This document shows positions 41,853 to 42,575 of a DNA stretch of 50,161 nucleotides, piece after piece. The position numbers were made by a program, and so were the translations under genes. The stretch covers positions 1-50,161 of the IMG/VR virus record IMGVR_UViG_3300009597_000018, one strand, 5' to 3'. The DNA comes from a virus. Within the stretch, counting starts at the first letter, position 1. Each line of letters starts with the position of its first letter. The notes under the pieces are model-generated. The model was not told where the DNA came from. It made no database searches and was given only the letters and a program-made list of their open reading frames with translations.

Positions 41853-42575
41853 ATGGGAAGCGCAGACGAAGGAGTGCTGTTCAAGACGTTCCGGGTGCGG
41901 CTCGTGTTCGAGAACCGGATCGTGGGCGGTATCCCGGTGATCCCGGAGGGTGCCGACCGCTCGGACGCGTACGAGAAGTGGGCGCGCGGCCAGGAGGTCG
42001 AGCAGGACCCCGCGTTCGAGAAGCCGTTGCACGACGCGCTGGCGGATGACCCGGATATGCCGGTGTCCGACGCGTCGGCCGAAGACGTGGCGGGGTTGGA
42101 GACGGGGTTCCGTCACGACGACACCGGGATCTACATCGAGGCCCGCCAGGTGAAGGCGATGATCCGTGAGGCGTCGCAGCGGCTCGGGCTGATCCAGAAG
42201 GTGCGGGGCACCCGGCAGGTTGTCCAGCATGACATTCATGTCCGGTCGCTCGGCGGTGTCGGCCAGAAGATCCGGTTCTACCGGGACGGGCTGCTTGTCG
42301 CGGACGCGGACGGGGTGGACACGCGGCCGATCAGTGTCGTGACCCGGCAGGGTCCTCGGACGGCGATCAAGCGGTTCGGGTTCGTGAGCGGCGCGACTAT
42401 CGAGTTCGACGTGATGGTGTTGAGCGGCGGTGTCGGCGACGGGATCGTCGGTGGCAAGGAGATCCGTCGGGTTTTCAAGCTCGGCGGGTTTCTCGGGCTG
42501 GGCGCTGACCGTTCGCAGGGAGAGGGCACGTTCTCGGTGGTGTCGCTGGAGGAGGTGGACGGGGACGACGAGTAA
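41853..42575 (+). CDS. RAMP-superfamily-like phage protein (240 aa)
   Basis: ATG at 41853 follows AAAGGGAGAGACAG. Near the C-terminus, residues 214-227 read LGLGADRSQGEGTF, an exact G-h-G-x5-G-x-G loop with Arg in the x5 segment, the hallmark of RAMP proteins (Cas6/Cas7/Csm3 group). The N-terminus FKTFRVRLVFE and the middle RTAIKRFGFVSGATIEFDVM fit ferredoxin-like strands. I recall unstudied phage proteins ending in a similar G-L-G-x-W-R-x-S-G-x-G loop, so this may belong to a phage family outside CRISPR. A repeat array begins right after its stop. Confidence 0.6.
   Translation: MGSADEGVLFKTFRVRLVFENRIVGGIPVIPEGADRSDAYEKWARGQEVEQDPAFEKPLHDALADDPDMPVSDASAEDVAGLETGFRHDDTGIYIEARQVKAMIREASQRLGLIQKVRGTRQVVQHDIHVRSLGGVGQKIRFYRDGLLVADADGVDTRPISVVTRQGPRTAIKRFGFVSGATIEFDVMVLSGGVGDGIVGGKEIRRVFKLGGFLGLGADRSQGEGTFSVVSLEEVDGDDE

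Follow-up and report, generated by a model that had tools for sequence, protein, structure and literature searches.

A probable VIPR system with a GTC-punctuated pentad array in a phage genome

Phages carry CRISPR-related RNA elements, known as solitary repeat units or RNA anti-CRISPRs, that mimic CRISPR repeats. A phage RAMP protein with an RNA of its own was described under the name VIPR in a 2026 preprint (PMC13142463), the accessible text of which presents a vrRNA made of GGY/NN pentads, recognition of DNA with one base skipped, and repression of one phage by another. In the same text, Vipr is held to be simpler than the RAMPs of CRISPR systems in having no second RRM domain, and VIPR is proposed as the ancestor of the CRISPR RAMP effectors. 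Type II vrRNAs contain 9-16 repeats, and other types have other array layouts; in SUSP1, one vrRNA is located upstream and three downstream, given without coordinates in that text (PMC13142463). Among the literature matches listed, no second description of VIPR was found beyond this preprint.

The locus reported here lies in a virus record of IMG/VR, of which the whole 50,161-base stretch was analysed (hereafter the window; Table 1). The original prediction regarded a RAMP protein with its own repeat RNA as new. That novelty does not hold, since the accessible part of PMC13142463 already describes the kind as VIPR. We show herein that the gene and the adjacent array very likely constitute a phage VIPR system, and that in this branch of the family the array is interrupted by GTC at regular phase shifts.

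Table 1. Positions of the gene, the arrays and the neighbouring features in the window
Feature	Position	Strand	Basis or remarks
vipr gene (predicted)	41853..42575	+	240-residue RAMP-fold protein; translation, 68-sequence alignment, AlphaFold2, Csm3/Cas7 matches
Possible 3' tail of array transcript	42576..42612	-	GC-rich hairpin between array and vipr end; weak
GTC-punctuated vrRNA array (putative)	42613..43050	-	Array scan, score 85.6 (whole window); 13 GTC[GA]C marks
Longest array unit	42743..42790	-	48 nt = GTC + 9 pentads
Small HicB/ribbon-helix-helix-like gene	43115..43318	+	Adjoins array 5' end; Pfam HicB E 7.4e-05
Second, separate vrRNA-like element	6318..6372	+	Intergenic, ahead of capsid gene; 11 perfect GGY-NN pentads
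Strong hairpin, candidate vrRNA tail or terminator	6373..6403	+	Directly after the 11 pentads

The Vipr protein and its family

The open reading frame claimed for the gene is real and encodes 240 residues. Near the C-terminus of the protein lies LGLGADRSQGEGTF, in which a G-h-G-x5-G-x-G loop had been recognized. The loop is present, but the pattern by itself is weak, as it occurs three times per 73,873 residues in a six-frame translation of the whole window. It is conservation in the family that makes the loop more than a chance match: G215, G217, A218, R220 and G225 of the C-terminal loop are invariant in an alignment of 68 family sequences, as are G25, P28, F86, K101 and E106 outside it.

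The window protein at first retrieved no relative from viral_contigs, and plasmids yielded none either. A homologue in the Microcystis phage Mae-JY09 (28.7%, E 2e-7) provided the entry point to the family, leading to 27 viral contigs and then, with a profile, to 77. The closest relative of the window protein is encoded at locus L032 (54%), and locus L002 duplicates the window. Loci with too short a family match (L004, L088 and L097) and duplicate proteins were left out before counting; the remaining loci come partly from related contigs and are therefore not fully independent. No real family was assigned to the window protein by Pfam, PHROGs, NCBIfam or PADLOC, and the window would thereby add to VIPR a branch that has no real match in any of the four. 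Below threshold, PADLOC matched the window protein to Csm4 (E 0.058), and a gut-phage relative was matched to Cas7_IIId (E 0.0022) and Csm4 (E 0.026). Bacterial genomes with this branch of Vipr are few, with five loci among the 84,980 species genomes of one collection (including L136 of Streptacidiphilus carbonis, L137 of Actinomadura, and L135), and arrays are found at three of the five.

Structure prediction and fold comparison with Csm3 and Cas7, suggested at the outset as a check, returned the RAMP fold. The AlphaFold2 model built from the 68-sequence alignment (pLDDT 86.3, pTM 0.84) gave 127 Foldseek matches in the PDB at E<=0.001, and the best 50 of the 127 were Csm, Cmr, type VII or Cas7-11 structures. 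E-values were about 1e-7 for Cmr, Csm and type VII Cas7 chains, with modest TM-scores of 0.34-0.48 by query length. VIA gave Z values up to 13.6 (Csm3, type VII Cas7); the best Csm3 chains were aligned over 172-176 residues at 3.8-4.2 A, and identity to Csm3/Cas7 was 8-15% in the alignments listed. Among the viral models of BFVD, the best named match was to a "Cas system-associated RAMP superfamily protein" of a phage (E 1.8e-13). When the family profile was compared with PDB sequences, six matches were obtained at E<10, four of them to Cas7, Cas5 or Csm4, and none of the six was significant on its own; its matches to CRISPR RAMP sequences were marginal (E 0.34-1.9). A RAMP fold is thus well supported by the model, and the traits of Vipr, namely a small RAMP with an RRM core and a G-loop, appear in the predicted structure, its structural matches and the invariant loop.

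A pentad array interrupted by GTC

The repeats reported next to the gene form a genuine array, which lies 38 bases beyond vipr and is antisense to it. While the short repeats had been seen correctly, their 5-base period, their location on the minus strand and their 5n+3 spacing had been missed. Read on the minus strand, the array consists of (GGNNN)n pentads interrupted by GTC, with a unit-start consensus of GTCGCRTC; its regular units comprise 4-9 pentads each, the conserved first pentad included, and the dinucleotides of the pentads are hypervariable. Ten of the 12 spacings are 3 modulo 5 (binomial P 4.5e-6), and the local period-5 score is 29.0, whereas none of 200 dinucleotide shuffles scored above 13.0. 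Only 58% of the pentads carry a pyrimidine as the third base, so the GGY pattern is not clean, and in some units the GG itself is broken.

As originally stated, there is no true CRISPR here: identical repeats with unique spacers are absent, and the array is built of pentads with GTC, in degenerate copies of 61-82% identity to the reference copy (families D1-D5). Nor was cas1 detected, PF01867 giving 0/1 in the window record and a positive control in 10 of 14 genomes. Because cas1 can be missing from type III loci, its absence alone is not decisive. Within 41700-43400, neither a sigma-70-type promoter nor a terminator was detected, and the folding of 42576-42700 was no better than that of shuffles (z-score -0.18). 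Hammerhead ribozymes were considered and rejected: Rfam at gathering score returned only tRNAs from nine array loci, and its two matches in the window region were at chance level.

That a RAMP protein is accompanied by its own repeat array was the core of the original prediction, and this linkage recurs across the family in distant phages. Period-5 GG arrays scoring at least 25 are found at 63 of the 74 unique loci; in the null, for which each locus was shuffled once, the median score was 13 and the highest 25. At 59 of the 63 array-bearing loci, no more than 1 kb separates the best array from the gene, compared with 17.1 expected under uniform placement, and at the other four the distance is greater; 11 of the 74 loci have no array at this threshold. 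The orientation is equally consistent, with arrays antisense to the gene at 60 of the 63 loci. At L032, a GTCGCRTC-type array follows the gene as in the window, and the downstream genes differ. Another locus, L092, carries three separate punctuated arrays (1-253, 2091-2956 and 6963-7586), on both strands.

In the family arrays, GTC is inserted in 406 of 487 three-base phase shifts, and GTCG or GTCA in 103 of 238 four-base phase shifts. We propose that GUC marks the boundary between guides, apparently a new feature, and it probably acts as a signal for processing or register. In its accessible form, the main text of the VIPR preprint makes no mention of GUC, GTC or punctuation (PMC13142463). 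The same text does refer to "staggered arrays with overlapping vrRNAs", which might be the same thing as the GTC-punctuated arrays.

The second element of the window, 35 kb away from vipr, is vrRNA-like in another way. The third base is a pyrimidine in 11 of its 11 pentads, its local score of 28.5 was reached by 0 of 200 shuffles (highest 15.8), and the region 6314-6420 folds with an MFE of -60.9 (z-score -2.96). Judged by its sequence, 6318-6403 resembles a classical single vrRNA, unlike the punctuated array of the same phage. It had 0 exact target matches in viral_contigs, and 0 among 396 genomes of one phylum with up to two mismatches.

The array lies in a replication region with a DnaB helicase. 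From its HicB match, the product of the gene at the array 5' end may be a DNA-binding accessory protein. The search for a conserved accessory gene at the window locus was negative, and the locus has no neighbour cluster in common with L032 or with any other locus. Elsewhere in the family, at 22 loci including L014 and L020, a conserved gene family of ~190 residues precedes vipr by ~550 bases; Pfam matched neither of the two members that were scanned, and the gene is a candidate accessory gene. In another part of the window, at ~33800-34880 (+), a segment running from CFPAGTLIRLADG to VHNC within a phage protein looks like an intein. The relatives of the DnaB-like helicase are mostly from phages of Mycobacterium, Streptomyces and other hosts, and together with a window G+C of 66.7% they suggest an actinobacterial host. 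The best-matching capsid proteins belong to phages of proteobacteria, and window 1-25000 had no megablast match among phages.

Guides, their targets and competing readings

As a positive control, SUSP1 (KT454805) was analysed with the same profile and scanner. The top profile match in the first 50 kb was a 196-residue ORF at 28474-29061 (E 0.005, weak), and arrays were located at 27743-27966 and 29159-29226, flanking a two-gene locus. This layout agrees with the SUSP1 arrangement in the accessible preprint text and suggests that the ORF is Vipr. From the features described in the preprint and the layout of this control, we therefore conclude with high confidence that the window gene and array are a VIPR system.

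For such a system, we infer that the array would be transcribed from near 43060 towards vipr as a chain of guide RNAs. The GG of each pentad would be held by one Vipr subunit, and the last two bases would pair with target DNA, one target base being skipped between successive dinucleotides. GUC would mark the end of one guide and the start of the next, and the loaded RNA-protein complex would bind matching DNA of competing phages and bring about repression, the targets of this phage presumably being of that kind. The G-loop had originally been compared with the loop by which Cas6/Cas7-type proteins bind repeat RNA. Recognition of the array by this loop in the manner of Cas6 is not supported; the array is best read as a series of guides, encoded in the variable dinucleotides on the opposite strand.

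The one-base-skip code could be examined in the relatives. When 153 units of at least 8 pentads were read in this way, five perfect and four one-mismatch matches were obtained, all nine of which came from a single unit of L077 against homologous vipr sites and are thus non-independent. This unit matches 16 of 16 positions in vipr genes of rival phages, at five loci, and spells K V A E G W L K there. In this test, no perfect match was obtained with skips of 0 or 2, six order shuffles, reversed order, or positions 3-4. A set of 198 perfect matches under skip rule 3 was read as unmasked array copies in duplicate loci and was not counted. A sliding search with 873 guides added a unit of L053 that matches the vipr genes of both L055 and L088 at 18 of 18 positions, and a unit of L103 that matches 18 of 18 positions of a phage gene encoding a GPHGLGK motif, a putative P-loop. 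In the vipr targets as well as in the GPHGLGK gene, the base skipped is the wobble base of the codon. Against the vipr gene of their own carriers, the L077 unit mismatches at 2 of 16 positions and the L053 unit at 4 of 18. Guides directed by vipr loci of relatives against vipr genes lend the one-base-skip code independent support and reveal phage arms races down to single codons. In all three natural guide-target pairs, GTC delimits the match at both ends; these ends were judged by inspection only, as sliding guides cannot cross GTC phase shifts.

The guides of the window itself were searched likewise, and no target was found among the fetched family loci. As an exact pattern, the last 8 pentads of the longest unit had 19 matches in viral_contigs, about the chance estimate. 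These were rejected as targets, as they lay in unrelated proteins of lower-GC phages, shared a common [KN]L[KN]VLGSG, and never reached the first pentad. The second-longest regular unit (8 pentads), also used as an exact pattern, gave five matches in viral_contigs, none convincing, and a comparison of the window guides with seven related records gave one match with three mismatches versus two in the reversed control. The target pattern of a window unit also retrieved two loci, L107 (4633-5513) and L114 (4829-5709), in which clean GGY-NN arrays surround an ORF of 200 residues with a weak match to the Vipr profile (E 0.005); these are possibly VIPR of another type.

Short units of 4-9 pentads, broken GGs and the lack of targets found would fit a VIPR that is decaying, or one that is coded differently, with several units forming one long guide; the "staggered arrays with overlapping vrRNAs" of the accessible preprint text (PMC13142463) could be taken the same way. 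Either variant is compatible with VIPR membership. Nevertheless, L032 keeps the same punctuated layout, and the matches of three relatives end at GTC on both sides, so that we consider a relic or a different code rather unlikely. It is much less probable still that the array is a DNA element, such as an origin, a partition site or a set of RHH operators, placed beside a RAMP gene by chance or at a module boundary. The array does adjoin a HicB/RHH-like gene in the DnaB replication region, and the promoter search was negative. However, the array tracks the RAMP gene rather than the RHH gene, staying within 1 kb of it at the great majority of array-bearing loci and accompanying it at L032 with other downstream genes. 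Moreover, three-base phase shifts and hypervariable dinucleotides are unlike operators, and units of two relatives match the vipr genes of rivals with a one-base skip. A captured type III Csm3/Cas7 serving as an anti-CRISPR decoy, the array supplying decoy repeats, is hardly credible: Csm3 and type VII Cas7 are indeed the best matches among solved structures, but CRISPR RAMP profile matches are marginal, curated family scans are empty, a constant repeat with unique spacers is missing from the array, and the pentad code is carried by the family in many different phage contigs.

Within the VIPR reading, we see an even chance that a large branch of VIPR makes one transcript containing many short GUC-to-GUC guides, some aimed at the vipr of rivals, with the gene of the carrier recoded so as to escape. 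If so, a small phage would carry a dozen programmable silencers in ~440 bases, and cleavage, pausing or a change of Vipr register at GUC would be a novel route of guide-RNA production. The suggested rule of GUC-to-GUC units would also make natural targets predictable by computation.

Comparison with known systems

Compared with solitary repeat units and RNA anti-CRISPRs, the window array has no constant CRISPR-like repeat. With Csm3/Cas7 of types III-A, III-B and VII, the window protein appears from its model to have in common the RAMP fold and the C-terminal glycine-rich loop; unlike those CRISPR types, the window has no CRISPR array and no Cas1, and no multi-gene effector was seen adjacent. 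The closest resemblance is to the type II VIPR of SUSP1 as presented in the accessible preprint text, with which it shares a single phage RAMP and, next to the gene, intergenic GG-NN pentads. Matches with a one-base skip to genes of rival phages are a further resemblance to VIPR as so described, found here in relatives only. In contrast, SUSP1 has separate RNAs of ~100 nt with a structured tail, whereas the window has one tract of many GTC-separated units, and the third base of its pentads is not the strict pyrimidine of the GGY in that description. The units of the window array are mostly shorter than the 9-16 repeats given there for type II; the 6318 element has 11.
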